Assembly: GCA_017417055.1 (NCBI GenBank)
Contig: JAFPZX010000033.1
Coordinates: 1-32,129, forward strand
Length of the DNA stretch: 32,129 nucleotides
Origin: Anaerolineaceae bacterium
GTDB lineage: Bacteria; Chloroflexota; Anaerolineae; Anaerolineales; Anaerolineaceae
Reading direction: 5' to 3'
Shown piece after piece: positions 273-25,882 of this stretch. A model generated the notes under the pieces. It ran no database searches and was not told the origin of the DNA. It saw only the letters and a program-made list of their open reading frames with translations. The translations under genes were made by a program, and so were the position numbers. Position 1 is the stretch's first letter, and each line of letters starts with the position of its first letter.

Positions 273-1037
273 ATGAGCGGATTAGAGATCAAAAGCCTTT
301 ACGTCAGCGTTCACGAAAAACAGATCATCGAGAACTTTTCCCTCGCCGTACCCAAAGGCGAGATCCATGCCATTATGGGCCCGAACGGGACCGGAAAATC
401 GACCCTTTCTTATACGATCATGGGACACCCGGCATACAAACCATCCTCCGGTGACATTCTGATGAACGGTGAGCGTATCAATGACTGGACGCCGGATAAG
501 CGTTCTCATGCGGGTCTCTTCCTCGCGCTGCAATATCCTGTGGCCGTTCCCGGTGTGACTGTCGCGAATTTTCTGCGAACAGCACTGAACACCCAGCGCA
601 AAGCCCGCGACCCGGAAGATCACGGCATCCCGGTACCGGCTTTCCGCAAGCTGCTGCGGGAAAAGATGGGAAAGCTCAAGATGGACTCCTCCTTCGCTTC
701 CCGCTATCTGAACGATGGATTTTCCGGTGGTGAAAAGAAACGCACCGAGATCCTGCAAATGGCTGTGCTGCAGCCGGAGATCGCCATTCTGGATGAAATC
801 GACTCCGGTCTGGACATTGACGCACTGCGTATTGTTGCGGAAGGTGTCAACATGCTGGTTCAGGAAAACGGCATGGGCGTGCTTGTGATCACCCACTATC
901 AGCGTCTGCTGGATTATATCAAACCGGATGCTGTCCATGTGATGATGGACGGGCATATCGTCCGCTCCGGGGATGATTCTCTTGCTCTGGAACTGGAAGA
1001 AAAAGGCTACGAGTGGCTGAAAGAAAATCAGAAATAA
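273..1037 (+). CDS. sufC: SufC, Fe-S cluster assembly ATPase
   Basis: This is the ABC-type ATPase of the cytosolic SufBCD scaffold. ATP binding and hydrolysis by SufC drive the conformational changes in SufB/SufD that accompany cluster assembly. The 254-residue protein carries the full ATPase set: Walker [10 protein letters not shown] at residues 36-44, a Q-loop in LALQYP, the signature FSGGEKKR, Walker [12 protein letters not shown], and the switch histidine in ITHYQR. Length is normal for the family (about 250). The ATG at 273 has AGGAG at 262-266 in good spacing. It is the first gene of the operon. Oddity: its stop codon (1035-1037) lies inside a 7-bp repeat tract that continues to the sufB start. 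Confidence 0.97.
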
Positions 1038-1058
1038 GAAATCAGAAATAAGAAATGA
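1024..1058 (+). repeat. Heptanucleotide repeat tract, sufC-sufB junction
   Basis: Five consecutive 7-bp units read AAAATCA, GAAATAA, GAAATCA, GAAATAA, GAAATGA. The second unit holds the sufC stop codon and the last holds the sufB start codon, so the repeat forms both gene ends and the whole spacer. No Shine-Dalgarno sequence lies in front of sufB; the repeat occupies that position. Confidence 0.85.
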
Positions 1059-2470
1059 ATGATAGCGTAAAAAACAATTACGATGATCTTGGGCTGAACA
1101 ATGAGGCTTATGCCTTTCAGGATCCGGATGTTTCGGTCTTCAAAACCAAGGAAGGGCTGGATGAGGAAGTTGTCCGCCAGATTTCCGCGATGAAGGGCGA
1201 ACCGGAATGGATGCTGAATTACCGGCTCAAGAGCCTTGAACATTTTCAGAAGCGCCCGATGCCCAATTGGGGACCGGATGTTTCCAATCTTGACCTGGAC
1301 CACCTGGTGTATTATGTCCGCCCTTCGGAAAAGTCTGAAAAGAACTGGGATGATGTTCCGGAAACGATCAAAAATACCTTTGACAAACTGGGCATCCCGG
1401 AAGCAGAACAGAAATTCCTGGCCGGCGTAGGCGCGCAGTATGAATCCGAAATGGTTTACCATTCCATTCAGGAACAGCTCGAAAAACAGGGCGTGATTTT
1501 TGTAAGTATCGAAGACGGGCTGCGCCAGTACCCCGATCTTTTCCGTGAATATTTCGGGACAGTGGTCCCTTATAATGACAATAAGTTCGCCGCGCTCAAC
1601 GGTGCGGTATGGTCCGGCGGGTCATTTGTTTATGTACCGAAAGGCGTGCATGTGGAACTGCCGCTGCAGGCTTATTTCCGCATGAACATGGCCAATGTCG
1701 GACAGTTTGAGCGTTCGCTGATCATTGCCGATGAGGGTTCTCAGGTTCATTATGTGGAAGGCTGTACCGCACCGCAGTACACCACAAATTCCTTCCACTC
1801 CGGCGTAATCGAAATCGTTGTCAAACGCGGTGCACGGGTGCGTTATTCAACCATCCAGAACTGGTCCACCAATGTTTATAACCTGGTGACCCAGCGTGCC
1901 AAGGTGTTTGCGCACGGGACGATGGAATGGGTCGACTCCAATCTCGGCTCCCATGTGACCATGAAATACCCGGCCTGCTACCTGATGGAAGAGGGCGCCC
2001 ATGGGGAGATGCTTTCCATGGCGTTTGCCGGCCGCAATCAGATCCAGGATGCCGGGTCCAAGATGGTCCATTTCGCACCGAACACGACCTCCAAGGTGAC
2101 TTCCAAGTCCATTTCCAAAAATGGCGGACGTTCTTCCTTCCGCGGTCTGGTAAAGGTAATGCCCGGCGCGGTCAACGCCAAAGTCAATGTTGTGTGCGAC
2201 GCGCTGATTCTTGACCCGATTTCCCAGTCGGACACCTATCCGACGATGGATGTAAAGCAGAAGAATGTCTCCATCGGACACGAAGCCTCGGTCTCCAAGG
2301 TCGGGGAAGAGCAGCTCTTTTATCTGATGAGCCGCGGGCTGAGCGAAGAAGACGCGACCTCCATGGTCGTTTCCGGGTTTATTGAACCGCTGGTCAAAGA
2401 ACTGCCAATGGAATACGCGGTGGAAATGAACCGCCTGATCCAGCTGCAGATGTCGGATTCGATTGGATAA
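1055..2470 (+). CDS. sufB: SufB, Fe-S cluster assembly scaffold subunit
   Basis: SufB is the scaffold subunit of SufBCD, on which the nascent Fe-S cluster is built. The 471-residue product matches the family in length. The C-terminal SufB/SufD beta-helix core is evident. Cys381 in the CDALILD segment corresponds to the essential Cys405 of E. coli SufB, and the His-Glu pair in IGHEAS corresponds to the region of E. coli Glu434. The C-terminal block [19 protein letters not shown] is characteristic. The ATG at 1055 lies 17 bases after sufC in a repeat tract without a clear ribosome binding site, so translation may be coupled to sufC. Identification is secure by motif and operon context. Confidence 0.97.
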
Positions 2471-2473
2471 AAT

Positions 2474-2508
2474 CAAGGGATAGGATTTAGGATATAGGGA
2501 ATAGTGAT
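2474..2508 (+). repeat. Heptanucleotide repeat tract, sufB-sufD junction
   Basis: Five 7-bp units read CAAGGGA, TAGGATT, TAGGATA, TAGGGAA, TAGTGAT. They fill the gap after the sufB stop and run into the sufD start codon. The AGGGA of the fourth unit sits six bases before the ATG at 2507, so a repeat unit appears to serve as the ribosome binding site. Confidence 0.8.
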
Positions 2509-5173: not shown

Positions 5174-5257
5174 AGCAGTCGGCAGCCAGCTGTCAGCAGT
5201 CAGCACTCGTCGCAGTTCTGGCCACTGACCACTGGCCACTGACTACCGGAGACTATT
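5174..5257 (+). repeat. Heptanucleotide inverted tract, sufS-sufU spacer
   Basis: Twelve 7-bp units exactly fill the 85-base spacer up to the sufU ATG. The left units are of the type AGCAGTC, GGCAGCC, AGCTGTC; the right units are CACTGAC, CACTGGC, CACTGAC, TACCGGA. Left and right halves are roughly reverse complements (CAGTC against GACTG), so the tract can fold on itself. The GGAG in TACCGGA supplies the sufU ribosome binding site. Confidence 0.85.
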
Positions 5258-5656
5258 ATGGACGATATGTACCGCGAATTGATCATTGAGCATTACAAAA
5301 ATCCATCCTACCGCGGGACGTTGGATCCCTGCGATCACAGCTATGAGGACGAGAATCCTTCCTGCGGAGATGAACTGCGGATCATGCTCAATGTGGATGA
5401 GAATAATATCATTACCGATGCCCGTTTTGAAGGACACGGCTGCGCCATTTCCCAGGCAAGCGCGGATCTGCTGCTGGAGGAAGTGATCGGGAAGAATGTG
5501 GATGAAGTCAAGAATATGACGAAAGAAGACGTGTTGGACCTGCTCGGTCTGGAAACCCTTGGCCCTGCCCGCATCAAATGCGCCATGCTTTCGCTCAAAT
5601 GTCTCAAAGCCGGTCTGTATGGCGTGGAAGGCCATGCCTGGGAAGATATTATCTAA
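5258..5656 (+). CDS. sufU: SufU, zinc-dependent sulfur acceptor
   Basis: SufU is an IscU-fold protein that in Gram-positive-type SUF systems acts as a zinc-dependent sulfurtransferase partner of SufS. The 132-residue protein has the three conserved cysteines and the aspartate: Cys36 and Asp38 in PSCGDEL, Cys62 in GHGCAIS and Cys108 in RIKCAMLSLKC. An additional Cys115 follows. The N-terminal YRELIIEHYKNP segment is typical. It is slightly shorter than Bacillus SufU (about 147). It is the last suf gene. After it come another heptad tract and a palindromic repeat, and I saw no clear terminator. Confidence 0.95.
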   Translation: MDDMYRELIIEHYKNPSYRGTLDPCDHSYEDENPSCGDELRIMLNVDENNIITDARFEGHGCAISQASADLLLEEVIGKNVDEVKNMTKEDVLDLLGLETLGPARIKCAMLSLKCLKAGLYGVEGHAWEDII

Positions 5657-5657
5657 A

Positions 5658-5692
5658 TTGGAAATAAGAAATCAGAAATAAGAAATACAGCG
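5658..5692 (+). repeat. Heptanucleotide repeat tract after sufU
   Basis: Units TTGGAAA, TAAGAAA, TCAGAAA, TAAGAAA (5658-5685) keep a 7-bp period, followed by a divergent unit. The core is nearly the same sequence as the sufC-sufB junction tract, about 4.6 kb away. Confidence 0.75.
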
Positions 5693-5744: not shown

Positions 5745-5808
5745 GAGTCAAAGCGACCTGTTTTCGTTGACGCAGACTTGAGAAAACAACACAGGTCATT
5801 TTGACTCA
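5745..5808 (+). repeat. Dispersed palindromic element A, copy 1
   Basis: A ~64-bp imperfect palindrome has outer arms GAGTCAAA and TTTGACTC, inner arms CCTGTTTTC and GAAAACAACACAGG, and a GTTGACGCAGACTTGAG core. It matches copies at 14280-14345 (inverted) and 30030-30093. This copy is the most diverged in its right half. It lies in the gap between sufU and the methyltransferase-like gene. Confidence 0.8.
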
Positions 5809-5863
5809 TTCTGAATAGTTGCTCGTTTTATTTTTTTATTGCGTTCTGATTGATTTCTGACTA

Positions 5864-8094: not shown

Positions 8095-8988
8095 CTAATG
8101 ATTATACACCGGGCGGCGGGTGAGCGGTCTGTGCAGGGAATTGAGCAGGACCGGAACCAGCAGACTGAACAGGATCATCAGACATCCGGCCAGTTTATAT
8201 GGGCTCATCTGATCATGAAGGATGATGACACCCTGCAGGGATGCGCTGAGCGGAGAAAGAGCACACATCATCCCTGCCCGTTCCGCGGTGGTGCCGCGCT
8301 GGGCAACCGGCTGAAGGGTGAAGCCGAACCCGCTGCAGATAATGGCCAGAGCCAGGATCATTGTCCACTCCGTACCGGTTTGCGGCAGCCTGGGCTGTTC
8401 CAGAATGAAGGACATGATGAGGGAAAGGAAGCCAATCGTGAAGACCTGCGTGATGCCGATCATCAGTGGATCGCCTTTGCGGGAGGCAATATTGGTGACC
8501 AGAATCGCGGATGCGTAGAAGATTGCTGAACCGAGAAGATAAATACATCCGGAGCGGAGCAGTCCGCCGCTGGCACCGAGTGTCAGGAAAGCGATCCCGG
8601 TTACAGCGAGGATGATCCGCAGACTTTCCGTAGCCCGGATTTTCTTTTTCAAAAACACAAACTGGAAGATCGGCACAAAAATCATCGCGGAATTTTCTAT
8701 GAAGGAAGTCGTGCCTGAATCTGTAGCACGCAGTCCGGTTAATTCACATCCCATCATGATGGTGTAAAGAAGACCCAGGAAAAAGCCGTACTTCAGTTCA
8801 GTTTTTTGGATATAGATCAATTTTTTCCAAAAAAGGATCGCCAGAAAAATAAATGCGGTCAAAAATCGCACTGCCAAAAGATTGAACGGTGTGAGTGAAT
8901 TCATTGCGGATTTGGACAAAACAAAGGAAGTGCTGCGTGATAAAATCACGGCTGCCAATAAAAGTTCGCTTTTCTGTTGATTGTTCAT
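8095..8988 (-). CDS. EamA/DMT-family transporter
   Basis: This is an integral membrane protein of about ten helices built from two EamA repeats, as in drug/metabolite transporters and amino-acid exporters. The first repeat starts with LLLAAVILSRSTSFVLSK and contains the typical NLLAVRFLTAFIFLAI segment; the second begins near YLLGSAIFYASAILV. The substrate cannot be assigned. I chose the ATG at 8988, giving 297 residues, the usual family length. An in-frame start at 9147 would add 53 mostly hydrophilic residues that look non-coding. It is transcribed convergently with the DUF308 gene and shares its terminator. Confidence 0.88.
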   Translation of the reverse strand: MNNQQKSELLLAAVILSRSTSFVLSKSAMNSLTPFNLLAVRFLTAFIFLAILFWKKLIYIQKTELKYGFFLGLLYTIMMGCELTGLRATDSGTTSFIENSAMIFVPIFQFVFLKKKIRATESLRIILAVTGIAFLTLGASGGLLRSGCIYLLGSAIFYASAILVTNIASRKGDPLMIGITQVFTIGFLSLIMSFILEQPRLPQTGTEWTMILALAIICSGFGFTLQPVAQRGTTAERAGMMCALSPLSASLQGVIILHDQMSPYKLAGCLMILFSLLVPVLLNSLHRPLTRRPVYNH

Positions 8989-9261
8989 TCTGCCCCTGCC
9001 CTTTTCTCTTTCAATAACAGAGCATCTCCTGTCCTGCTCATTTGCTGCTGCGCAGCTTGTCAGTTTCTTTTTCCTGATTAGAGTATATATCTTTTTGATA
9101 ATTGAGAAAAGCTCCAATAAATCAATATAACTTTGCTTAATACGCAAATTAATTCTCTGGAGCGATTCGCGACATATTTCGCTTGAGATGAAGGGACTAA
9201 AATAATCCTTATTTATGATATAAATTCAATACAAAACTGATTAATTCGCAAAGAAACAGCG
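8989..9261. other. Gap between divergent genes, no gene seen
   Basis: This AT-rich stretch lies between the transporter start and the heptad tract. It includes an open reading extension upstream of the transporter that I do not accept as coding. I found no RNA gene or convincing promoter; the transporter's own promoter is presumably here. Confidence 0.5.
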
Positions 9262-9459
9262 GCCAGTGGGCAGAGGTCAGGTGCCAGTGGACAGAGGGCA
9301 GTAGTCAGTGGACAGAGGGCATTGGTCAGTGGACAGAGGTCAGTGGACAGAGGTCAGTGGTCAGTTATCAGTATATAGTATTTAGTACTTGGGAAAACTT
9401 TCAACTTTTCACTTCTTACTCCTTACTTCTTACTCCTAACCCCTAAAACCTAAAACCCA
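9262..9459 (+). repeat. Long heptanucleotide inverted tract
   Basis: About 28 degenerate 7-bp units run in one unbroken phase. The left units are GCCAGTG, GACAGAG, GTCAGTG and similar. The tract passes through a divergent centre (TATAGTA, TTTAGTA, CTTGGGA) and changes to pyrimidine-rich units (TCACTTC, TTACTCC, TAACCCC, TAAAACC). The right half resembles the other orientation of the same kind of repeat. It lies upstream of two sigma54-like promoters. Confidence 0.88.
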
Positions 9460-9468
9460 ATTCTCTTT

Positions 9469-9483
9469 TGGCACTGTCCTTGC
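9469..9483 (+). promoter_or_regulatory. Predicted sigma54 promoter, distal copy
   Basis: TGGCAC at 9469-9474 and TTGC at 9480-9483 are five bases apart, placing the invariant GG and GC ten bases apart as in sigma54 (RpoN) -24/-12 promoters. A 6-bp inverted repeat, GTCCTT (9476-9481) with AAGGAC (9491-9496), overlaps the -12 element. Expected start is near 9495. Confidence 0.6.
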
Positions 9484-9553
9484 AACAATAAAGGACAGCG
9501 GTAAAAAACAATGTGAAGATTGTGCAAAAATTCATTTGGAAAATTATCGCGGT

Positions 9554-9568
9554 TGGCACTGATATTGC
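9554..9568 (+). promoter_or_regulatory. Predicted sigma54 promoter, proximal copy
   Basis: TGGCAC at 9554-9559 and TTGC at 9565-9568 have exact sigma54 spacing (GG-N10-GC), as in the distal copy 85 bases upstream. A perfect 9-bp inverted repeat, ACTGATATT (9558-9566) with AATATCAGT (9572-9580), overlaps the -12 element and the expected start. It may be an operator or a hairpin at the transcript 5' end. Confidence 0.65.
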
Positions 9569-9650
9569 ACAAATATCAGTTAACCTGCCCCCTCAAAAAA
9601 GGGTGGTGGATGAAAATTCATCAAATTTCGTTGAGAAATGAGGTCAAAGC

Positions 9651-11264
9651 ATGAAAACGAAAACTTTTAGTATTTTGTTTGCTCTGGTGATGATCCTGAG
9701 CTTGTCGGTTGGAGTCTTTGCACAAGACTTCGAACAAACCTGGGACGAAAATACCGTTCTGCAGGTCTTCAGTGATATGAATCTGCTGTGGCCGGATATG
9801 TTCGAGAATGAAGATTCCGATTATATCTGGGTTGAAAGCGATGAACCGGTCGTCAAGGACTTTGTGAAAAAAGACGTTACCCTCGAGGATCTTGAATATG
9901 AAGGCAAGGCCCCGATCGGAACCGCTAAAATCACAAAAGCCACCTTCGATCCCTGTGGTGATGGACTGATTCTTTTTGAAATGACCATTACCCGTGCAGC
10001 TGATGAAACTGCTACAGTCAGCCAGTACTATGGCCCGGAAAAAACCACATACCTGCGCAAGCTGAGCGCAAAAGTTGACGGCGCTTCTGCCAGCGTGACC
10101 AAAGTTTCCTGCTCCGGCAGTGATGATGGCTGCAGCTCCATCCAGTTCAGAAAGAACAACAAAACTGGTCAGTATGAAGCTAAGATCAAAGGTTACATCC
10201 AGTATAACGGTATCCTTACTGAGACTTCCGCTCCGAATATTGAAATCTCTGTTGTCCACACCACATATCGCACAGCTTTTGGCTGGGCTGAAGATGAAGC
10301 TCCGATCACAGCAGCAGATACCGCTGCACCTGAACTGAAGAACAATTACTGCCAGGCTTTCCTGCAGGAATATGATCCGAAGAGCGGCACAGTCAATGCA
10401 ATGGATTCTGTCCGTGCAGTCTATGACGAAAACACCGGCGAAGCCCGCTTCCAGGTGACCATCCGCAACTACAAGAGCACTGCAAAGGATAACTATATTA
10501 TCCCTGCTGATGTCATGATTGACGGTTACGGCACCCGCTATACCAGCTACACATGCAAGTACACCATCTATAACAACGCCAACGGCGCTCCGCGTACTGA
10601 CTACTGCAAGTATGGTGAAGGTATCGGCCTCGGCAAAAATGCTCTGATCCGCTTTGATATCACCATCGATGGTATCAACGCTGCAGTTCTGCGCGATCTG
10701 GGTGGTGCTGATCTTCCGTTCTCCTTCCGCGTTGGCGGTATGGATCGCAAAATCACCGGCGTCTTCAAACCCGTTGAATTCCCGTGCCCGGTTGTCAGCC
10801 GCATGCAGGTCAAGGATCCTCTCTACAGATTCCTGACTCCTTATTTCGGCGAAAAAGATAAGACCATCTCCGCTTCCGGCGCTTATGGTATCTACAAGAA
10901 CGGTGTCTGGGGTATGTACCAGAAATGCGGTAAATACGCTTACATGATGGTCCGCCTCGCGAACGCTGGTATCAAAGATGAAACCATCAACCTGAACCAC
11001 GTTGCAGTAGCTATCAATGGCGGCACTCCGATGAGCTGGAACTGGGTTTTGAGCACACAGGATGCCTTCAAGAACAAGATCACACTTCCTGCTGGCGAAG
11101 AAGTTATCCTGATCGGCCGCGCAAAGATCACGGACTATCCGTCCCAGACCAACAGCGACCTGGCCATGACCGGCGCAATCAACTTCCTTGATTACGGCTT
11201 CTACATCACCGGTACTGTCTACTCCGATCACAATAACACCAATTGTGTCGCTGCCCCGAAATAA
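9651..11264 (+). CDS. Exported protein of unknown function, 537 aa
   Basis: I recognise no family. Residues 1-24 form a classic signal peptide (Lys-rich start, hydrophobic core, VFA before Gln25), with no lipobox cysteine, so the product is released outside the membrane. The mature part is rich in beta-prone segments and contains nine cysteines, including VSCSGSDDGCSS, TCKYT and YQKCGKY. There is no obvious anchor, S-layer repeat or catalytic motif. AGGT in front of the ATG (GAGGTCAAAGC) is a fair ribosome binding site. The gene is preceded by two sigma54-like promoters and followed by a strong hairpin and a terminator, and its codon use looks biased. This suggests a regulated, possibly abundant product. 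Its role is unknown. Confidence 0.88.
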   Translation: MKTKTFSILFALVMILSLSVGVFAQDFEQTWDENTVLQVFSDMNLLWPDMFENEDSDYIWVESDEPVVKDFVKKDVTLEDLEYEGKAPIGTAKITKATFDPCGDGLILFEMTITRAADETATVSQYYGPEKTTYLRKLSAKVDGASASVTKVSCSGSDDGCSSIQFRKNNKTGQYEAKIKGYIQYNGILTETSAPNIEISVVHTTYRTAFGWAEDEAPITAADTAAPELKNNYCQAFLQEYDPKSGTVNAMDSVRAVYDENTGEARFQVTIRNYKSTAKDNYIIPADVMIDGYGTRYTSYTCKYTIYNNANGAPRTDYCKYGEGIGLGKNALIRFDITIDGINAAVLRDLGGADLPFSFRVGGMDRKITGVFKPVEFPCPVVSRMQVKDPLYRFLTPYFGEKDKTISASGAYGIYKNGVWGMYQKCGKYAYMMVRLANAGIKDETINLNHVAVAINGGTPMSWNWVLSTQDAFKNKITLPAGEEVILIGRAKITDYPSQTNSDLAMTGAINFLDYGFYITGTVYSDHNNTNCVAAPK

Positions 11265-11331: not shown

Positions 11332-11349
11332 AGAAGCCCGGAATAATAT

Positions 11350-11379
11350 ATCCGTCTGATTCACCAAGGCGGATTTTTT
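11350..11379 (+). terminator. Rho-independent terminator
   Basis: A stem ATCCGTC (11350-11356) with GGCGGAT (11368-11374), containing one G-T pair, is followed directly by a T-run. It would end the transcript of the exported protein and separate it from the acyl carrier protein gene. Confidence 0.75.
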
Positions 11380-11513
11380 ATTTTAAATATAGTAACAATT
11401 TCAGGACAGGGCACATCAGGTCTGCCTTTTTGCTGCCGCACCGCCGGCACAAAAAGACTGCACTGTGTGCTGCGCAGCCGGGTTCTAAACATTCACCTTT
11501 GAAAGAGTACAAA

Positions 11514-12923: not shown

Positions 12924-14217
12924 CCTTCACCTCTTCCTTTTCCGGTTCCGCCGGGCTGCGGTAGACATGAACCCGCTGGATTCGTCTCCCGGATAATTCT
13001 TCAATTTCAAATGTCCATCCTTCCGCCTCAACTTTTTCTTTGAGGGTTGGAATTTTCCCGATTTGTGAGTAAAGGAAACCGGCCAGCGTATCGGCCGCGT
13101 CCCGTGTCAGGTGGGTTCCCAGATATTCATTCACGTCTTCCAGGTCAATGCGTCCGAGAAAGGAATATTCATCCGGACCGATTTCCTGAACCAGATCCTC
13201 TTCACGGTCATCATATTCATCGCGGATTTCCCCGACGATCTCTTCCACAATATCTTCCATGGAAACGATCCCGGAGGTACCACCGTATTCATCCACAACG
13301 ACAGCCATATGAATTCCGGAGGATTTCATCTCGTTCAAAAGGTCTCCCGCCATTTTCGATTCCGGCACAAAAAGCGCCTGACGCATCAGGTCACGGATGG
13401 TCACTACCCGCTTTTCCACGTAAGCCTGCAGGAGATCCTTTGCGTAAAGGATTCCCACGATGCGGTCGATTTCATCATCATAAATCGGTAGTCTCGAATG
13501 TCCGGACTCCCGGATGAGCCGGGCGGCTTCATCCAGCGGTGTTTCTACATCCAAAGCGTCAATTTCTACACGAGGGATCATAATTTCCCGGATCATGGTG
13601 TTGGAAAAATGGACGATGGAACGGATCATTTTCTTCTCATCCTGTTCCAGAATCGTATTTTCTGGTATGTTTTCCACCCAATCCTTCAGATGGCTTTCTT
13701 CTTTTTCAATGTCCGGCGGGGGCGTGATGACCGGACGGGGGAGGATCCGGTGAACCAGCAGGTAAAGTGGCGTAAAGATGCTGCTCAGCAGCTTGCACAG
13801 CCCGGCCAGGCTGTCGGCTGTTTTCTGTGGATTTTTTGCGGTGATGGCAGTCACGATGGACTCCAGCAGGATGAGGATCAGGACCACACAGAACACATAA
13901 AGCAACAGCAGCGGAATGGTCAGCTTATAGGGCAGCACACGGATGGCATAAACAACGGCAAATCCGACAGTCATCCCGGACAAAAACCTGTCAGCGATAC
14001 GCAGTTTATCCATCAGCGATTCGTTGTCAAGCAGCCGTGCGCTTACCGGCCGGTCGGTACTTTTGTCCTCTCCGCCGGGAATAACGATTTTTTCCTCAAG
14101 AAGGTAACGGTAAACATGGAAAATGACTGCCGTCAGAAGGTCCAACAGCAAAAATATGATCAAAACAAGAAGTAAAAGGCTGTCCGAAAGGGACGCAAGG
14201 GTACTACCGGGTTCCAT
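12910..14217 (-). CDS. CorC/HlyC-family CBS-domain membrane protein
   Basis: A 435-residue protein with hydrophobic N-terminal segments (about residues 8-35, 80-105 and 108-130), then two CBS domains (about 205-325; MIPRVEIDALD and VPESKMAGDLL mark their starts) and a C-terminal CorC/HlyC transporter-associated domain containing DEYSFLGRIDLEDVNEYLG. The segment VVDEYGGTSGIVSMEDIVEEIVGEI is highly characteristic. Such proteins are linked to magnesium or cobalt efflux, but true hemolysin activity is doubtful. It resembles the YhdP/YfjD/CNNM-related group more than short CorC. The membrane part is less canonical than a full DUF21 domain. It is first in an operon with cdd and recO. Confidence 0.9.
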   Translation of the reverse strand: MEPGSTLASLSDSLLLLVLIIFLLLDLLTAVIFHVYRYLLEEKIVIPGGEDKSTDRPVSARLLDNESLMDKLRIADRFLSGMTVGFAVVYAIRVLPYKLTIPLLLLYVFCVVLILILLESIVTAITAKNPQKTADSLAGLCKLLSSIFTPLYLLVHRILPRPVITPPPDIEKEESHLKDWVENIPENTILEQDEKKMIRSIVHFSNTMIREIMIPRVEIDALDVETPLDEAARLIRESGHSRLPIYDDEIDRIVGILYAKDLLQAYVEKRVVTIRDLMRQALFVPESKMAGDLLNEMKSSGIHMAVVVDEYGGTSGIVSMEDIVEEIVGEIRDEYDDREEDLVQEIGPDEYSFLGRIDLEDVNEYLGTHLTRDAADTLAGFLYSQIGKIPTLKEKVEAEGWTFEIEELSGRRIQRVHVYRSPAEPEKEEVKDDVQ

Positions 14218-14279
14218 AAATCTTAAAGGCTTTTCTCAGCCGTACATCTGTCTTTCTGCAATTTCAGCTTAATGTTTTG

Positions 14280-14345
14280 TGAGTCAATGCAGCCTGTTCT
14301 GTTGACTCAAGTCTGAGTCAACGAAAACAGGCCGCATTTGACTCA
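14280..14345 (-). repeat. Dispersed palindromic element A, copy 2
   Basis: A 66-bp nested palindrome has perfect outer arms TGAGTCAA and TTGACTCA and inner arms GTTGACTC and GAGTCAAC. Its reverse complement is nearly identical to the copy at 30030-30093. It lies between the CorC-like gene and yifB, both on the minus strand. Confidence 0.88.
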
Positions 14346-14430
14346 GAATGAATTCATCAATATCTTTAAAATTCTGCCCAACACAGGGGCAAGGAAAATT
14401 ATAACGCAATTTTCGCAAAATGAAAACTGC

Positions 14431-15954
14431 TCAGCCGTTCGTCCGCGGACGATATTGGATGGCTTCTGCCATATGGCGTGTCTGGATAACCGGGGAAGCG
14501 TCCAGATCTGCGATGGTGCGGGCAAGTTTGAGCAGACGGTGGTAAGCCCGAGCGGAAATCTGGTAATGGGTCATCAGATGTTTGACCAGCTTTTCTCCCT
14601 CTGTGTCAAGACGACAGTACTGCCGGATCTCCGCGGGTCCCATTTCCGAATTACAGGTCACGTTGGGATTTTCCGCAAAACGGACACGCTGCCTTTCCCG
14701 GGCTGCTTCCACTCTTTCCCTTATGGAGGCAGAGGACTCTCCGACTGTGTCACTGGACAATTTTTCATACTCAACCCGCGGTACGTCGATGCGGATATCA
14801 ATGCGGTCCAGCAGCGGTCCGGAAATGCGTTTCTGATAGCGCTGGATAGAGAAATCCGAACAGGTGCAGCTGTGTGTCGGGTCTCCGTAATAACCGCAGG
14901 GACAGGGGTTCATAGCTGCCACGAGCATGAAGTTCGCGGGAAAGCTGTAAGCACCGGTGGCACGGGAGATGGTCACGACTTTATCTTCCAGCGGCTGCCG
15001 CAGAACTTCGAGAACACGGGGATCGAACTCCGGAAACTCATCCAGGAAAAGTACGCCGCGATGTGCCAGTGAAATTTCACCCGGGCGCGGGACGTTGCCT
15101 CCACCCACCAAACCGGCATAGGAGACAGTGTGATGCGGAGCGCGGAACGGACGGGTTTGGATCAGCGGCGTACCGGCGGGCAGCATATCCTCAATGGAAT
15201 AAATGCGCGTCACATCCAGGCTTTCTTCCAGTGTCATCCGCGGCAGGATGGAAGGAAGCGCACGTGCAAGCAGGGTTTTCCCGGTTCCGGGTGATCCGTT
15301 CATCAGCACGTTATGCGACCCGGCAGCCGCGATTTCCAGTGCCCGTTTGACATGCTCCTGCCCTTTGATCTCGCTGAAATCGGTCTTTACGGTGACGGGC
15401 GTTTCTTTCAGTTCGCAGGGCTGCTGTGGTTCAATGAGCTGGATGCCGAGAAAGTGATTGTAAAGCTCCAGCAAAGAATGGACCGGCAGCACCTCGATCC
15501 CGGGAATCAGGGCAGCTTCCGGCGCGTCGCAAGCCGGTACGCAGACACTTTTGAAGCCCATCTCTTTGGCTTTGGCCGCGATCAGCAAAACACCGCGGAT
15601 ATGACGCACGGATCCGTCAAGAGAGAGCTCGCCGACGATCAATTTATCATCCAGTTCCGGGATCCATCCTCTGTCACGGCAGGCAAGTTCCCCGATGGCG
15701 ATCGGCAAATCAAAGCAGGGGCCTTCTTTCCGCAGGTCAGCCGGAGCCAGGTTGACCGTGATGCGGTTCCGCATGCTTTGCAGGCCGGAGTTTTTGATGG
15801 CTCCGCGAACCCGTTCTCTGCTTTCCTGCACAGCAGTATCCGGCAGACCGACCATGATAGTTTTCGGTTCCTCTAAGGAGGACATATCCACTTCAACTTC
15901 GATGATCGTTCCGGAAAGACCGGACAACGCACAGGAATACACACGGGCAAGCAT
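14431..15954 (-). CDS. YifB/ComM-family Mg-chelatase-like AAA+ ATPase
   Basis: A 507-residue protein with an N-terminal Lon-like domain (1-180, starting with the VYSCALSGL and DTAVQESRERVRGAI segments), a central AAA+ ATPase domain with Walker A NGSPGTGKTLLA near 220 and Walker B LFLDEFPEF, and a C-terminal Mg-chelatase-like domain. A cysteine cluster (NPCPCGYYGD...CTC) precedes the C-terminal part, as in ComM. ComM is a helicase for branch migration in natural transformation; the role in other bacteria is less clear. Its start overlaps the RNase D-like stop by one base (TGATG), so the two are translated together. Confidence 0.93.
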   Translation of the reverse strand: MLARVYSCALSGLSGTIIEVEVDMSSLEEPKTIMVGLPDTAVQESRERVRGAIKNSGLQSMRNRITVNLAPADLRKEGPCFDLPIAIGELACRDRGWIPELDDKLIVGELSLDGSVRHIRGVLLIAAKAKEMGFKSVCVPACDAPEAALIPGIEVLPVHSLLELYNHFLGIQLIEPQQPCELKETPVTVKTDFSEIKGQEHVKRALEIAAAGSHNVLMNGSPGTGKTLLARALPSILPRMTLEESLDVTRIYSIEDMLPAGTPLIQTRPFRAPHHTVSYAGLVGGGNVPRPGEISLAHRGVLFLDEFPEFDPRVLEVLRQPLEDKVVTISRATGAYSFPANFMLVAAMNPCPCGYYGDPTHSCTCSDFSIQRYQKRISGPLLDRIDIRIDVPRVEYEKLSSDTVGESSASIRERVEAARERQRVRFAENPNVTCNSEMGPAEIRQYCRLDTEGEKLVKHLMTHYQISARAYHRLLKLARTIADLDASPVIQTRHMAEAIQYRPRTNG

Positions 15955-17160: not shown

Positions 17161-17190
17161 ATTATAATACGGCAAAGCAAAGTTTGTCAA
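17161..17190 (-). promoter_or_regulatory. Consensus sigma70 promoter of a leaderless transcript
   Basis: On the minus strand TTGACA (17190-17185) and TATAAT (17166-17161) are separated by 18 bases, both perfect consensus hexamers. Only seven bases lie between the -10 box and the ATG at 17153. Transcription would begin at or within a base or two of the start codon, so the mRNA should be leaderless. No ribosome binding site is present. Confidence 0.8.
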
Positions 17191-17243
17191 AAAGAACGGC
17201 ATTTCATATGTATGCTAAAAAAAATGGCTGATTAATCGGCACC

Positions 17244-17311
17244 GCACATGGGGACAGGCACGCTTGTGTTAGCTTTTTGACGCAAGGTGCCAGTCCCCAT
17301 GTGCTTCGTGT
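17244..17311 (+). repeat. Dispersed palindromic element B, copy 1
   Basis: Perfect 12-bp arms GCACATGGGGAC (17244-17255) and GTCCCCATGTGC (17293-17304) enclose a 37-base loop containing a second short inverted segment, followed by TTCGTG. The same arrangement occurs at 30273-30340. The element adjoins the terminator of the lipoprotein gene. Confidence 0.85.
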
Positions 17312-17353
17312 AAAAAAACAAAACAGCCTTCAGCCGGTGAAAGCTGAAGGCTG
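17311..17353 (-). terminator. Rho-independent terminator of the coiled-coil lipoprotein
   Basis: A perfect 11-bp stem, CAGCCTTCAGC (17324-17334) with GCTGAAGGCTG (17343-17353), is followed on the minus strand by a T-rich run (17323-17312). It lies 21 bases after the lipoprotein stop. Confidence 0.92.
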
Positions 17354-17374
17354 CTGATTCAGACGATAAAACGA

Positions 17375-18688
17375 TTACTCAATGAAATCCGCAATAGTTT
17401 CACGAAGAACAGCGTTTTCGATCTCCTTCAGCTCGAGTGCTTCGTTCAATTCTTCGAGTTGATCATACAATGCCTGGATCGTTTCCTGTGCATCTTCAAG
17501 GTCGAAGGATTCCATCAGTCCGGGTGCAACCGGTTCCTCTTCTTCCTCTGCCTCTTCTGCCTGAGCCAGGCGGATATTGATTTCATCCTGCATTGCTTCC
17601 AAAGCTTTCTGGAACTCATTCTTCTGCTGGATCAAGCCTTCATATTGAATTGTTAACTCAGTCAGCTGGGCCTGTGTCTCTTCCAGTTGAGCGGTAAGTT
17701 CTGCGTTTTCAGCCACTGTTTCCTCAAGTTTTGCCTGTAATTCCGCGGCTGAGGCGTCCTTTTCCGCAACCAGTGCGTCGTGGCTATCGGTGACGGATTT
17801 CAGGGTTTCTTCAGCTGCGGAGGCGGCTGCTTCAAGATCGGACTGCTTTTCAGCAGCCAGAGAATTCAGTTTTTCTTCAGCTTCGGCAACGGCAGCTTCT
17901 TTTTCAGCTGTCAGGTCATCGAATTTTTTCTGCAATTCCGCGATGGCAGCGTCTTTTTCCGCGACCATAGCTTCATACTGTTCTTTGGCCTGCGCGATGG
18001 CAGCATCTTTTTCCGCGACCATGGCTTCATACTGTTCTTTGGCCTTCGCAATGGCGGCATCCTTTTCAGCGACCATGGCGTCAAATTGTTCTTTTGCTTC
18101 TGCAACGGCAGCGTCCTTTTCAGCTACCAGAGCGTCATATTTTTCCTGAGCTGCGGCAGCTGCTGCTTCAAGTTCCGCTTTCTTTTCAGCGGCAAAAGCG
18201 TCATATTTTTCCTGTGCTTCGGCAAGGGCAGCTGCGCTTTCAGCTTTGGCGGTTTCAAGATTTTCTTCAGCAGCGGCGATCAGAGCGTCTTTTTGTTCGG
18301 TGACCGTCTTCAGGTTTTCTTCAGCCGCGGCAACCAGGGAGTCCTTTTCGGAAGTAAGCGCTTCGATTTTGGTTTGTGCTTCCGCGATCAGAGCATCCTT
18401 TTGTTCGGTTACGGAATTCAGTTTTTCTTCAGCTTCGGCAAGGAGCTTATCCTTTTCCGCTGTCAGCTCATCCAGCTGCGTTTTGGCCTGAGCCTGCAGT
18501 TCTTCAATTTTCGCGTCTTTTTCAGCGACAGCGGATTTCAAAGAAGCCTGAGCTTCATCGATTTGCGCCTGGAGAGCTTCTTTTTCACTGTTAAATGTTG
18601 CAGTCAATTCATCAATCTTTTTTTGGCTGCAGCCGGAAAGACAGACAACAAGCGCTAAAAGCAATACAACAAGGGTCGATTTTTTCAT
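17375..18688 (-). CDS. Lipoprotein with 18-residue helical repeats
   Basis: A 437-residue envelope lipoprotein: a short signal with lipobox LSGC (lipidated Cys20, Ser21 next) anchors it to the membrane. From about residue 24 to 350 it is almost purely helical, rich in Ala, Glu and Lys, and built from repeats of about 18 residues such as AEKDAAIAKAKEQYEAMV. The last 60 residues lose the repeat and end acidic. An 18-residue unit equals five helix turns (3.6 residues each), unlike the heptads of ordinary coiled coils. It may be a long single helix or a bundle, a spacer between membrane and wall, or a binding scaffold. GGAGG five bases before the ATG is a strong ribosome binding site. No enzyme domain is seen. 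Confidence 0.85.
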   Translation of the reverse strand: MKKSTLVVLLLALVVCLSGCSQKKIDELTATFNSEKEALQAQIDEAQASLKSAVAEKDAKIEELQAQAKTQLDELTAEKDKLLAEAEEKLNSVTEQKDALIAEAQTKIEALTSEKDSLVAAAEENLKTVTEQKDALIAAAEENLETAKAESAAALAEAQEKYDAFAAEKKAELEAAAAAAQEKYDALVAEKDAAVAEAKEQFDAMVAEKDAAIAKAKEQYEAMVAEKDAAIAQAKEQYEAMVAEKDAAIAELQKKFDDLTAEKEAAVAEAEEKLNSLAAEKQSDLEAAASAAEETLKSVTDSHDALVAEKDASAAELQAKLEETVAENAELTAQLEETQAQLTELTIQYEGLIQQKNEFQKALEAMQDEINIRLAQAEEAEEEEEPVAPGLMESFDLEDAQETIQALYDQLEELNEALELKEIENAVLRETIADFIE

Positions 18689-22210: not shown

Positions 22211-22221
22211 TTTTTCTCTCA

Positions 22222-22424
22222 GTAGTCAGTGTCCAGTGGTCAGTAGTCAGTGTGAAGTGTTCAGAGTGAAGTGTGAAGTTAAATATATTTAATTGACTCT
22301 GCTCTCCTCACTCCTTAATCCTGACTCCTTACTACTTATTTCTTCCGCCTAAACGTCATACGTCTTATGTCATACGTCTTACGTCTAATATCTAATATCT
22401 TACGTGTAAAATCATACGTCTAAA
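22222..22424 (-). repeat. Long heptanucleotide inverted tract, mfd-pth spacer
   Basis: Twenty-nine 7-bp units run in one phase through the whole spacer. The left part reads GTAGTCA, GTGTCCA, GTGGTCA, GTGTGAA. An AT palindrome (TTAAATATATTTAA, 22279-22292) marks the centre. The right part reads CCTCACT, CCTTAAT, CCTGACT and then GTCATAC, GTCTTAT, GTCTAAT. The end of the pth coding sequence, including its stop codon, lies inside the tract. Confidence 0.92.
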
Positions 22425-23062
22425 ACAACCGGTCCGTTGTAGTGGTTCATGCACCAGGTATAGCCCTGCGTAACAAAATCCAGCACGCAGGATGCTGCCT
22501 TATCCAGGACCAGCGGCAGCAATTCACTGTCTTCTTTTGAAAATTTTTTGAGGACAAAATCGATCACTTCCATCTGTCCCGGCGGATGACCGATGCCGCA
22601 GCGCAGCCGGCAGAAATCCTGGGAGCCGAGCTGTGTGATGATGGATCCCATTCCTTTTTGACCGCCATTGCTTCCGTTCGGCCGGACCCGCAGCGTCCCG
22701 AATGGCAAGTCCATGTCATCATGGACCACAAACAGCCGTTCCTGCGGGATCTTGTAATAACGCATCAGCGGGACGACAGCTTTACCGGAGTCATTCATAT
22801 AGGTGATCGGTTTGGCAAGCAGGAGTTTCCGTCCTTCATAAGGGACAGTTGTCACCAATGCCTTCTGCTGTTCCTTTTCGAACTGCACATTCAGCCGTTC
22901 TGCCAGCCGATCGAGCACCATAAAGCCGAAATTATGCCGGCTTTCGCGGTATTCACGTCCGGGATTACCCAGACCCGCGATCAGGTACATTTCGCCGCCC
23001 GCGGCTTCCTCTTTTTGTTCACGCTGCGCACGGATGGCAGCAAAAAATTGATCCATATCCAT
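22412..23062 (-). CDS. pth: Pth, peptidyl-tRNA hydrolase
   Basis: Pth cleaves peptidyl-tRNA released by drop-off and recycles tRNA. The catalytic pattern is complete: YLIAGLGNPGREY, the catalytic histidine in SRHNFGFM, MNDSGKAV, and the HDDMDLPFG segment. From the ATG at 23062 the protein has 216 residues. A start at 22990 would give 192 residues, the usual length and with the usual first residues (MYLIAGLG). The 24-residue extension is hydrophilic and helical (FFAAIRAQREQKEEAAGG), and neither start has a strong ribosome binding site, so the choice is uncertain. It follows a 54-aa membrane protein gene by 11 bases. Confidence 0.94.
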   Translation of the reverse strand: MDMDQFFAAIRAQREQKEEAAGGEMYLIAGLGNPGREYRESRHNFGFMVLDRLAERLNVQFEKEQQKALVTTVPYEGRKLLLAKPITYMNDSGKAVVPLMRYYKIPQERLFVVHDDMDLPFGTLRVRPNGSNGGQKGMGSIITQLGSQDFCRLRCGIGHPPGQMEVIDFVLKKFSKEDSELLPLVLDKAASCVLDFVTQGYTWCMNHYNGPVVLDV

Positions 23063-24449: not shown

Positions 24450-24547
24450 GCAGTCAGTGTCCAGCAGTCAGCAGCCAGTAAAAAGGAATCGTATTCGAGA
24501 TTCGTTTTTTCCGGTCACTGACCACTGAAAACTTTTTACTTCTTTTT
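24450..24547 (-). repeat. Heptanucleotide inverted tract, mnmA-HEAT gene spacer
   Basis: About fourteen 7-bp units run in one phase. They read GCAGTCA, GTGTCCA, GCAGTCA, GCAGCCA; a diverged centre follows; then GGTCACT, GACCACT, GAAAACT, TTTTACT. The HEAT protein stop (24536-24538) and last codons lie inside it. Confidence 0.85.
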
Positions 24548-25882
24548 TCTTCTTGCTTCCAATTTATTGATAAAATCCTGAAGGGAATCAGCATCCAGAT
24601 CCTCTTCAGCCATGTCCTCAAACTCAGCCCACAGGTCTTCTTCGTCCGCGTCATGTGCCGCTGATTTTTCATAAGCTTCCAGATCATCCAGGATCCGGAA
24701 GCGGGATAGATCCATCCCTTCCAGCGGATTGTCATGATGATCATGATGGTGATGATGGTGGTGATGCTCGCCGCACTCACATTCGTCGTCATGGTCGTCA
24801 TCATAAAGATCAATTGCCTCATCATCTTCAAGATCATGAGGGATCTTTTCCTCAAGAATGCTCAGACATTGATCTTTGGAGCGCTCTATGGCTTCATGCA
24901 AAGCTTCGCGGACATGCTTCGGAGTGTGCTTCTCTTCAAATGTCGGTCCCAGATGGATCGCCATATTCAGCGTATCGATGGAATCATCAATGGCCTCTGT
25001 AATCTCCGCATCCATATCTACCGCAGCTTCCCCTAACGTCTCCAGAACATCATAGGAACCTTCGTCACCGATTTCGGCGACGGCTTCCACCGCCGTCAGG
25101 AGCATTTCCGGGGAAATGCGGTCAAACCGGGAAATAAGTTCATAAAGCAGCGGGAGCGCTTCCCGGAGCTGCAATGTCCCTGTGGCACGAATCGCTTCCA
25201 TGCTCACTTCGTCATCTTCGTGACGCATCAGCTCCAGAACAGTTCCGGCCCACTCTTCACCCATGGCATGGCGGACCGCTTCCAACGCAGCGATCAATTC
25301 ATCACGGTTATTCCCGGCAAGATAGCCGGTAATGATTTCCTTGACCCGTTTGTCTTCGGAAACTGCGTAAGAAACTACCGCAGCCCGGCGGACTGCCTGA
25401 TTTTTACTCTCGATCAGGTTCTCCAACACTTCATGGAGTTTCTTCTTGTTGACAGGGATCCGGTTGTCAAGCGCTGATTCAAACATATATTGTCCCAACA
25501 CCTGTACCGCTGCAATTTGTGCCTTTTCATACGGGTCATTCTGAGCTGCATCCAAAATTTTCTCACCCGCTGATTTATCATCCTCAAATCCGAGTACCTG
25601 GATGGATGCTGTCCGAACGTCACCGTCCGAATCCTCGAGACCGATTTTCGCAATCGGAGTATAGTTGCATTCAAAGGAATTCATGGCGGAGATATACATA
25701 CCCTGAAAAAATTCCGAACGGTTCGCATCCGAAATTTCTGCAAGAACAGTACGCAGTTTGTTCGTTTTTTCCGGGGGCAGGTCTGAAAGCATTCGTGCAT
25801 GTTTCACGAACACTCTTTCCGGTTGTTCACGGATCATCTGTAATATATTATCAAAATTCGTTCGTTTGCTTGTATTCGCCAT
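24536..25882 (-). CDS. HEAT-repeat protein with His-rich segment, function unknown
   Basis: A 448-residue, strongly acidic soluble protein. Residues about 60-310 are paired helices with HEAT-like units (for example LEDSDGDVRTASIQVLGF and MRHEDDEVSMEAIRATGT), a protein-interaction solenoid. Near residue 370 a CECGE segment is followed by eight histidines and DHHD, a plausible metal-binding site (Zn, Ni or Cu). The C-terminal 80 residues are acidic helices ending in basic EARRKKK. I know of no named function. GAGGAA in front of the ATG is an adequate ribosome binding site, and rseP is 27 bases upstream on the same strand, so they may share a transcript. The terminal codons lie in a repeat tract. 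Confidence 0.82.
   Translation of the reverse strand: MANTSKRTNFDNILQMIREQPERVFVKHARMLSDLPPEKTNKLRTVLAEISDANRSEFFQGMYISAMNSFECNYTPIAKIGLEDSDGDVRTASIQVLGFEDDKSAGEKILDAAQNDPYEKAQIAAVQVLGQYMFESALDNRIPVNKKKLHEVLENLIESKNQAVRRAAVVSYAVSEDKRVKEIITGYLAGNNRDELIAALEAVRHAMGEEWAGTVLELMRHEDDEVSMEAIRATGTLQLREALPLLYELISRFDRISPEMLLTAVEAVAEIGDEGSYDVLETLGEAAVDMDAEITEAIDDSIDTLNMAIHLGPTFEEKHTPKHVREALHEAIERSKDQCLSILEEKIPHDLEDDEAIDLYDDDHDDECECGEHHHHHHHHDHHDNPLEGMDLSRFRILDDLEAYEKSAAHDADEEDLWAEFEDMAEEDLDADSLQDFINKLEARRKKK

Follow-up and report, generated by a model that had tools for sequence, protein, structure and literature searches.

What kind of process lays down intergenic DNA in steps of exactly seven nucleotides, and turns the strand over halfway? 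The question is raised by a tract at positions 9262-9459 of a 32,129-nucleotide stretch from an Anaerolineaceae bacterium (GenBank assembly GCA_017417055.1, contig JAFPZX010000033.1; the whole stretch is hereafter the window), in which degenerate heptanucleotide units pass from a purine-rich left arm to a pyrimidine-rich right arm. The window is contig C126 of the draft genome G000 (4.4 Mb, 200 contigs, 85% complete). The Chloroflexi metagenome-assembled genome (MAG) RUG13159 is among its closest named relatives, with an Mfd identity of 92%, and belongs to the RUG series, which is of rumen origin. Our analysis suggests that such heptamer arrays are probably nearly neutral, fast-evolving spacer DNA, built by slippage and template switching together with the import of blocks from other arrays.

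Seven-nucleotide frame of the intergenic arrays

The excess at lag 7 over shuffled spacers that the initial annotation had predicted is clearly present. In the window together with 20 contigs of G000 not selected for repeats, 28 lag-7 segments are found in 136 spacers, where 20 dinucleotide shuffles used as control give 0.05 on average. The 20 contigs alone have 24 intergenic lag-7 segments and no coding one; the corresponding numbers are 6 and 1 in the window, and 41 and 4 in the stretches selected for containing GTCAGTGGTCAGTG (L118-L129, C85 and C112), with genes called by a small custom codon-usage caller instead of a standard program. The contigs L130-L149, taken at near-regular steps of contig number, and the stretches of relatives were chosen independently of repeats. 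When lags are compared at a score of at least 17, the window has 7 segments at lag 7, one each at lags 3, 9 and 12, and none at lags 6, 8, 10, 11 and 13; in G000 the multiples of lag 7 also stand out, with lags 6 and 8 near zero. At the threshold used for the window itself (score of at least 13), the lag-7 segments are 1025-1058, 5175-5248, 5655-5687, 9257-9469, 22219-22279, 22297-22402 and 24516-24559, and Tandem Repeats Finder (TRF) reports rows at 9257-9365, 9411-9437, several in 22219-22425, and 24450-24478. The tracts are thus found where the annotation had placed them, except that 2474-2508 is represented only by a weak TRF row at 2480-2498, below the lag-7 threshold. Being tandem 7-nt units at many loci, mostly intergenic, the G000 arrays have these features in common with the short tandemly repeated repetitive (STRR) type.

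The anatomy of the arrays was taken from the 146 tracts that 1.236 Mb of sequence yielded in five genomes, namely G000 and the four congeners G013 (89% complete), G012, G006 and G005, whose Mfd identities to G000 are 92, 89, 89 and 86%; tracts with N were removed before counting. Over 202 arms, the identity between units declines with their distance from 1 to 8 units as.671,.607,.564,.517,.483,.476,.456 and.442, while at lags 6 and 8 it is.258 and.259 against the.671 of lag 7: the 7-nt frame is strict. The arms are purine-rich with an AG core: AG is the best-phased dinucleotide (mean 0.62 over 162 arms) and GT the next (0.44), although AG is the single most phased one in just 41 of these 162 arms, and since the phasing step favours AG, the unit logo partly reflects the way it was built. 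Among the consensus units of the five genomes are TCAGTGG, GAAGTAA, TAAGAAA, GGAGTTA, ATAGGAA and TTAGGTG, and arms of the ACGTAAG type are also seen in G000. A G3 quadruplex as the common cause was rejected, as the G3 motif occurs in just 2 of 192 arms (G2 motif in 76).

Orientation of the arms

The switch from purine to pyrimidine, noticed at a few tracts of the window, proved to be general. Writing '+-' for a tract whose purine strand lies on the plus strand in its left arm and on the minus strand in its right arm, the 146 tracts comprise 51 single arms with the purine strand on plus, 46 with it on minus, 41 '+-' pairs, a lone '-+' and 7 other orders. The '+-' pairs are distributed as 21 in G000, 15 in G006, 4 in G013, 1 in G012 and 0 in G005. 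Counted by spacer, the 58 spacers with at least two arms give 44 '+-', no '-+' alone and 14 other orders, and all two-arm tracts recognisable by eye in L130-L149 run from purine to pyrimidine.

In the tract of our question, the left arm (9257..9384, AG strand on plus) consists of NCAGTGG-type units drifting to TTAGTAC, and the right arm (9398..9469, AG strand on minus) of TTACTCC and CCTAAAA units, both by TRF and lag-7 score. Here the main register is kept through the switch as first described, for AG stands mostly at 4 mod 7 in the left arm and CT at 4 mod 7 in the right one, where a further series of CT falls at 0. Genome-wide this does not hold, the phases of the two arms being unrelated (of 41 two-arm tracts, 8 have an offset of zero, p 0.43); their units are slightly related, with a 5-mer cosine of.221 against.164 ±.025 for swapped arms. 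Three further pairs lie in the window. The mfd-pth spacer has a left arm of TCAGTGG then GTGAAGT units (22219..22283, plus; lag-7 score) and a right arm of TTACTCC then ACGTCTT units (22297..22425, minus; TRF and lag-7), which enters the 3' end of pth; the sufS-nifU spacer has GCAGTCN units at 5174..5205 (plus) and CCACTGA units at 5218..5248 (minus), both by TRF and lag-7 score; and between mnmA and a HEAT-repeat gene, GCAGTCA units (24450..24478, plus; TRF) are followed by a right arm overlapping the 3' end of the HEAT-repeat gene (24511..24559, minus; lag-7 score). Single arms, all on plus, are AAATCAG/AAATAAG at 1025..1058 (TRF, lag-7), which covers the sufC stop codon and reaches the sufB start, GAAATAA at 5655..5687 (TRF, lag-7 score), 3' of nifU, and the weak TAGGATT arm at the sufB-sufD junction (2480..2498; TRF score 31).

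As independent phases would be expected if two broken ends were each extended and then joined by Ku/LigD, such telomere-fusion-like joining has to be considered. Ku is found in only 3 of 249 genomes of the class and not in G000, and none of those three matches the heptamer pattern, so that joining by Ku is effectively refuted and may be given practically no weight.

Convergent arms are able to pair, and selected RNA or DNA hairpins, acting as terminators, mRNA stabilisers or cruciforms, would be another way to read them. The RNA fold of 9257-9469 reaches -48 kcal/mol, a figure without shuffle control, and perfect centre stems of at least 8 occur in 2 of 41 tracts of the genus and in 1 of 12 tracts of G096, a genome from another family of the same class (99% complete, 3 contigs). 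Over 36 tracts, however, the arms pair with their own partners (-18.7) no better than with swapped ones (-19.0 ± 1.1, p 0.60), which lends no support to a large functional hairpin. Moreover, 97 of the 146 tracts are single-armed, and divergent spacers, which hold no transcript ends, bear tracts as often as the others: 20 of 121 (16.5%), with 97 of 734 (13.2%) co-directional and 18 of 111 (16.2%) convergent spacers, differences that are not significant. The 9262 tract itself lies in a divergent spacer. Selected hairpins are accordingly improbable, and intrinsic terminators in particular were rejected, there being neither a preference for spacers with transcript 3' ends nor a partner-specific pairing of arms. 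At gathering thresholds, Rfam has no match in the window. Fold-back template switching fared unevenly. In the genus, centre stems average 4.02, whereas swapping the halves gives 3.67 ± 0.17 (a value as high as 4.02 in 6 of 300 shuffles), which lends it slight support, while in G096 there is no excess over swapped halves; fold-back from a central palindrome was therefore set aside as a general origin.

Relative to gene borders, a set of 39 two-arm tracts overlaps 19 of 40 3' gene ends and 0 of 38 5' ends, and at 3' gene ends the purine strand of single arms reads away from the gene in 52 of 63 cases (p 2e-7). Because arms of both signs occur within one spacer and in every gene context, the direction of replication or transcription could hardly set the polarity.

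Turnover of units and proposed copying between arrays

Orthologous spacers sometimes have an array at the shared site, and the unit then usually differs. Comparing G000 with G013, a tract is present in both, in G000 only, in the other only and in neither in 3, 6, 1 and 45 spacers (Fisher p.012), and with G006 in 3, 1, 4 and 23 (Fisher p.028); the sharing of sites is not significant for G012 (1, 1, 0 and 14) and G005 (1, 0, 3 and 10). By eye, the unit type differs in 6 of 8 shared-site cases. For example, upstream of the gene at 9651 the units are TCAGTGG and TTACTCC in G000, GATCCCC in G013, CACTGAC in G006 and CCTAACT in G005, and the length of the pth-mfd spacer ranges from 201 bp in G000, which has two arms there, through 140 bp in G005, whose units are different ones, and 48 bp in G013, down to 1 bp in G006 and G012. 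At the spacer C85|61, where G000, G006 and G012 all have CAGTGG-like units, no turnover is evident.

Some blocks of units also recur at other loci. Non-periodic composite strings are shared across G000 loci, the longest outside a segmental duplicate being the 28-bp AGTGTTCAGAGTTCAGAGTGCAGTTAAA at two loci, whose core, searched as the string GTTCAGAGTGCAGTTAA with up to 3 mismatches allowed, has 11 matches, of which six lie in G000 arrays, while its reversed control has 4. Two further strings give 41 against 6 and 18 against 1. In G096 whole arms recur: (AATGACG)4-AATGAAGAG stands at three places, two of these 0.8 kb apart, and CAGTGGG arms switch to TCGCTAT at the identical point in three places. 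Leaving out pairs less than 3 kb apart and the segmental duplicate L138/L144, shared blocks with a score of at least 30 amount to 72.5 per 1000 arm pairs within G096, about fortyfold over the cross-genome level of 0 to 1.67.

Plain replication slippage, as in the usual evolution of microsatellites or STRRs and without any traffic from locus to locus, would already account for the strict 7-nt frame and for the likeness of neighbouring units, and in the available part of PMC4679880 two Cyanothece strains differ mostly by 7-nt indels; the modest block sharing within G000, treated below, also suits it. It does not predict the 41:1 excess of convergent pairs, nor the G096 blocks with an identical internal unit change at three places, nor arrays whose similarity contradicts that of the flanking genes. 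We therefore regard slippage on its own as rather unlikely, and favour slippage and template switching combined with the import of blocks. Under this favoured reading, slippage and template switching while DNA is repaired or replicated would lengthen an array by copying the adjacent unit, and a block would occasionally be imported from another array through short homology, its strand polarity being kept. Growth would probably take place at the purine strand's 3' end, since this choice yields '+-' pairs in every gene context, and selection would trim the arrays only where they meet promoters, ribosome-binding sites or coding sequence. Both the growth on the purine strand's 3' side and the copying between arrays are inferred from the arrays as they now stand. 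Of the earlier proposals, the building of intergenic DNA by copying is upheld: the lag-7 excess, the likeness of neighbours, the replacement of units and the recurring blocks support a process that advances by 7 nt and both adds to spacer DNA and replaces it.

Several results weigh against this reading. One genome per species was compared and no single mutational step was seen; in the 40-kb syntenic stretches of relatives, lag 7 gives just 0 to 2 segments at a score of at least 17; and block sharing within G000 is 3.27 per 1000, only about twofold over the cross-genome level, with part of it due to the common TCAGTGG unit. Single arms at 5' gene ends show no preference (16 of 28 away), and in the genome G264 the purine strand of single arms, scored by purine content, runs toward genes in 11 of 14 cases, i.e. 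away in 3 of 14; there the purine label and the AG/ACT core conflict for units such as AACTAAA, so that the polarity depends on the scoring. Equal tracts in diverged relatives, an outcome that the initial annotation had named as refuting, do occur in the suf operon, a counter-example to the units that mostly differ elsewhere, and none of the pairs concerned is sister by mfd: at sufC-sufB, G013 and G012 have 41 identical bases in common and the arrays of G000 and G005 differ by one base, and at sufB-sufD the TAGGATT unit is retained in both G000 and G006.

The sufC-sufB array (window 1014-1060; L111, L150, L152 and L153) shows a discordance of about 40 bp in its own right. The pairs sharing an array are not sisters by mfd, G000 being nearest to G013 and G012 to G006 by mfd and sufB (by sufC alone, G012 is marginally nearer to G013, 87.3%, than to G006, 87.1%), and sufC and sufB are 86 to 87% identical within the sharing pairs. 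An exchange of short tracts between species, or the repeated copying of one block, would explain it.

Neighbouring genes, distribution and known systems

The 9262 tract lies between a gene for an EamA-family transporter on the minus strand (8095..9147; start at 8988 in the custom caller), which makes the spacer divergent, and a plus-strand gene (9651..11264) for a 537-aa protein with no Pfam match, five matches in G005 and, by eye, a signal-peptide-like N-terminal stretch. Promoters of sigma54 have a -24/-12 consensus, to which we liken TTGGCAY-N5-TTGCAAC at 9468..9486 (plus), conserved in the four species compared; a second element, TTGGCAC-N5-TTGCA at 9553..9571 (plus), is identical in these species. 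Two tandem sigma54-like elements (9468-9571) thus precede the 9651 gene, and an RpoN domain is found in all five genomes of the genus. The arrays of differing units end shortly upstream of the first element in four species (by eye in G006 and G005), and array ends in general tend, by eye, to coincide with the onset of conserved functional DNA.

Other repeats were met in the same DNA. An inverted-repeat element of about 67 bp (GAGTCAAAG..CCTGTTTTCGTTGACTCAGACTTGAGTCAACAGAACAGG...TTGACTC) lies at window 5745-5812 and inside 14205-14445; with 16 matches in 678 kb of G000, one in G012 and none in the sampled DNA of G013, G006 and G005, it resembles a miniature inverted-repeat transposable element (MITE) and is nearly private to the G000 species. 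A dispersed inverted repeat, GCACATGGGGACAGGCAC...GTGCCAGTCCCCATGTGC (window 17170-17385), has 16 matches in G000 and 8 in G006, counts in which a palindromic copy may enter once per strand, and tandem repeats of 54 and 66 bp (window 17937-18247) lie within a DUF3106 gene (17375-18688). The G000 DNA that was sampled contains three copies of a palindrome like the repetitive extragenic palindromic (REP) sequences, GCAGCCGAAATCNTCACCGANCCCGGCT (L121 at about 11340-11382, L137 at about 5400-5470, and L140), two of them beside or inside heptamer tracts.

Across the class, the AG-core pattern is found in 169 of 249 genomes with 0 to more than 1,700 matches, and array-free and array-rich genera coexist within one family, for example f50. 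The reversed-pattern control is often as high because other heptamer families match it, and these counts therefore show patchiness only. The polarity recurs: G096 has 12 '+-' and 0 '-+' pairs, and 18 stretches of array-rich genomes have 13 and 2 (9 and 2 in the 17 without the G096 stretch). In the array-rich stretches L210-L227, lag 7 gives 46 segments and lags 6, 8 and 9 give 39, 21 and 24, coding DNA included. G264 is the exception with nearly all arms single; in its stretches L229 and L237, single AACTAAA or CCACTGA arrays are spaced about 1 to 3 kb apart over one 20-kb stretch, and intergenic segments with a 10-bp period number 8 in G264 and 1 in G096. In the loci sampled from other phyla (L023-L079, 879 kb), there is neither an excess at lag 7, which gives 15 segments where lag 6 gives 55 and lag 9 gives 45, nor a polarity (1 '+-' and 1 '-+').

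A REPIN-like mobile half-site element moved by a Y1 (HUH) transposase would agree with the whole arms of G096, which recur with both ends. Of 15 array-rich genomes 12 have a Y1_Tnp match above the cut-off, as do 2 of 15 array-poor ones (p 0.0007; 12 against 4 at E <= 0.001), and Y1_Tnp is present in all five genomes of the genus; these 30 genomes of the array-rich and array-poor sets were hand-picked from the class-wide pattern counts and differ in size and lineage, with many array-rich genomes left out. Only 1 of 13 stretches around Y1_Tnp matches holds a tract, unlike REPIN/RAYT systems, whose transposase gene has its repeats on either side, and three array-rich genomes have no Y1_Tnp match. 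We read the co-occurrence as a confounded correlate and rejected the transposase as a general cause; the mobile half-site element is quite improbable. A telomerase-like reverse transcriptase writing repeats onto broken 3' ends would fit a purine strand that points into the tract from either end, as it does where telomeres have fused. DRT10, according to the available part of PMC12632851, indeed produces tandem-repeat cDNA, GAATGAAGA stands near the inner end of at least 7 of 32 G096 arms by eye, and RVT_1 has one match in G000, three in G005 and one in G012. By Pfam RVT_1, the only model used, there is no match in G013, G006, G096 and four more array-rich genomes, the difference between array-rich (10 of 15) and array-poor (4 of 15) genomes has p 0.066, and a fixed template would not produce the decay of identity with distance; this reverse transcriptase is very improbable. 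Taken together, the surveys of RVT_1, Ku and Y1_Tnp and the stretches around the Y1 matches did not bring up the small mobile agent that had been offered as one possible builder of the tracts.

A bolder reading, which we advance only tentatively, would be that a widespread, unnamed DNA-copying activity lays down 7-nt units in the spacers of bacteria. It would always extend the purine (AG-core) strand at its 3' end, advancing from gene borders into the spacer; its unit would be almost free and replaced within a genus, and it would work without Ku or RVT_1; the polarity seen in Xanthomonas, Nostoc and Beggiatoaceae might then be the same signature. One polarity rule across those groups and this class would be our own synthesis and goes beyond the cited papers.

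Heptamers are over-represented among bacterial simple repeats. Among the papers listed by our searches, in a library that covers only a minority of subscription papers, none is on such arrays in Anaerolineae. Detailed literature on bacterial heptamers was absent as of 2015 according to the introduction of PMC4692102 (Rehm et al. 2015). As far as the available part of that paper goes, it describes GGGAATC and GGGGAYT heptamers in Xanthomonas and Nostoc that are mostly intergenic and degenerate with variable unit number, with 70 and 75 convergent opposite-strand cases in two Xanthomonas; the repeat lies on the coding strand after stop codons, some of which it overlaps, and ahead of start codons it lies on the non-coding strand. 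With respect to gene ends, all three species studied there, Nostoc included, show a bias in strand. Degenerate intergenic heptamers and convergent opposite-strand pairs are therefore common to those systems, in the account available, and to the Anaerolineaceae arrays (41:1; 12:0 in G096). As for gene ends, the purine strand here leads away from the near end in 52 of 63 arms at 3' ends, 16 of 28 at 5' ends and 3 of 14 in G264. Unlike what is described for Xanthomonas and Nostoc, there are many unit families in one genome here, G3 occurs in 2 of 192 arms, and the units are mostly replaced between congeners.

Other systems resemble the arrays in part. In the available part of PMC4679880, direct TAACTGA repeats of Beggiatoaceae, Cyanobacteria and Bacteroidetes mostly point toward the start codon, and in some relatives among the Bacteroidetes the spacers are shorter and free of repeats. 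Read on the other strand, TAACTGA becomes TCAGTTA, a unit with the AG core, and its start-directed polarity matches the right arm here, whereas just one inverted pair is described there against 41 '+-' tracts in our genus. The STRR sequences of Calothrix comprise several dispersed tandem heptanucleotides in one genome, as here, in another clade; the introduction of PMC4692102, which mentions them, says nothing on strand polarity. In the same phylum, the (GATAGRA)n satellites of Chloroflexus aurantiacus, for which transposition was suggested as the mechanism (PMC6749651), are heptamer-derived and scattered; they have a single unit, and the part of the source available describes no convergent pairs.

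What the present arrays offer beside these systems is that the constant parts, namely the 7-nt step and the convergence, can be separated from the free part, the sequence of the unit. The data speak against a common cause in G3 quadruplexes, hairpins, Ku or RVT_1, and the process is made testable by the coexisting unit families, the swapped units at shared sites, and the array-rich and array-free genera in one family. Convergent heptamer pairs are already known from Xanthomonas; new here are the many unit families in one genome, their frequent replacement, and a polarity that is maintained without G3 runs.
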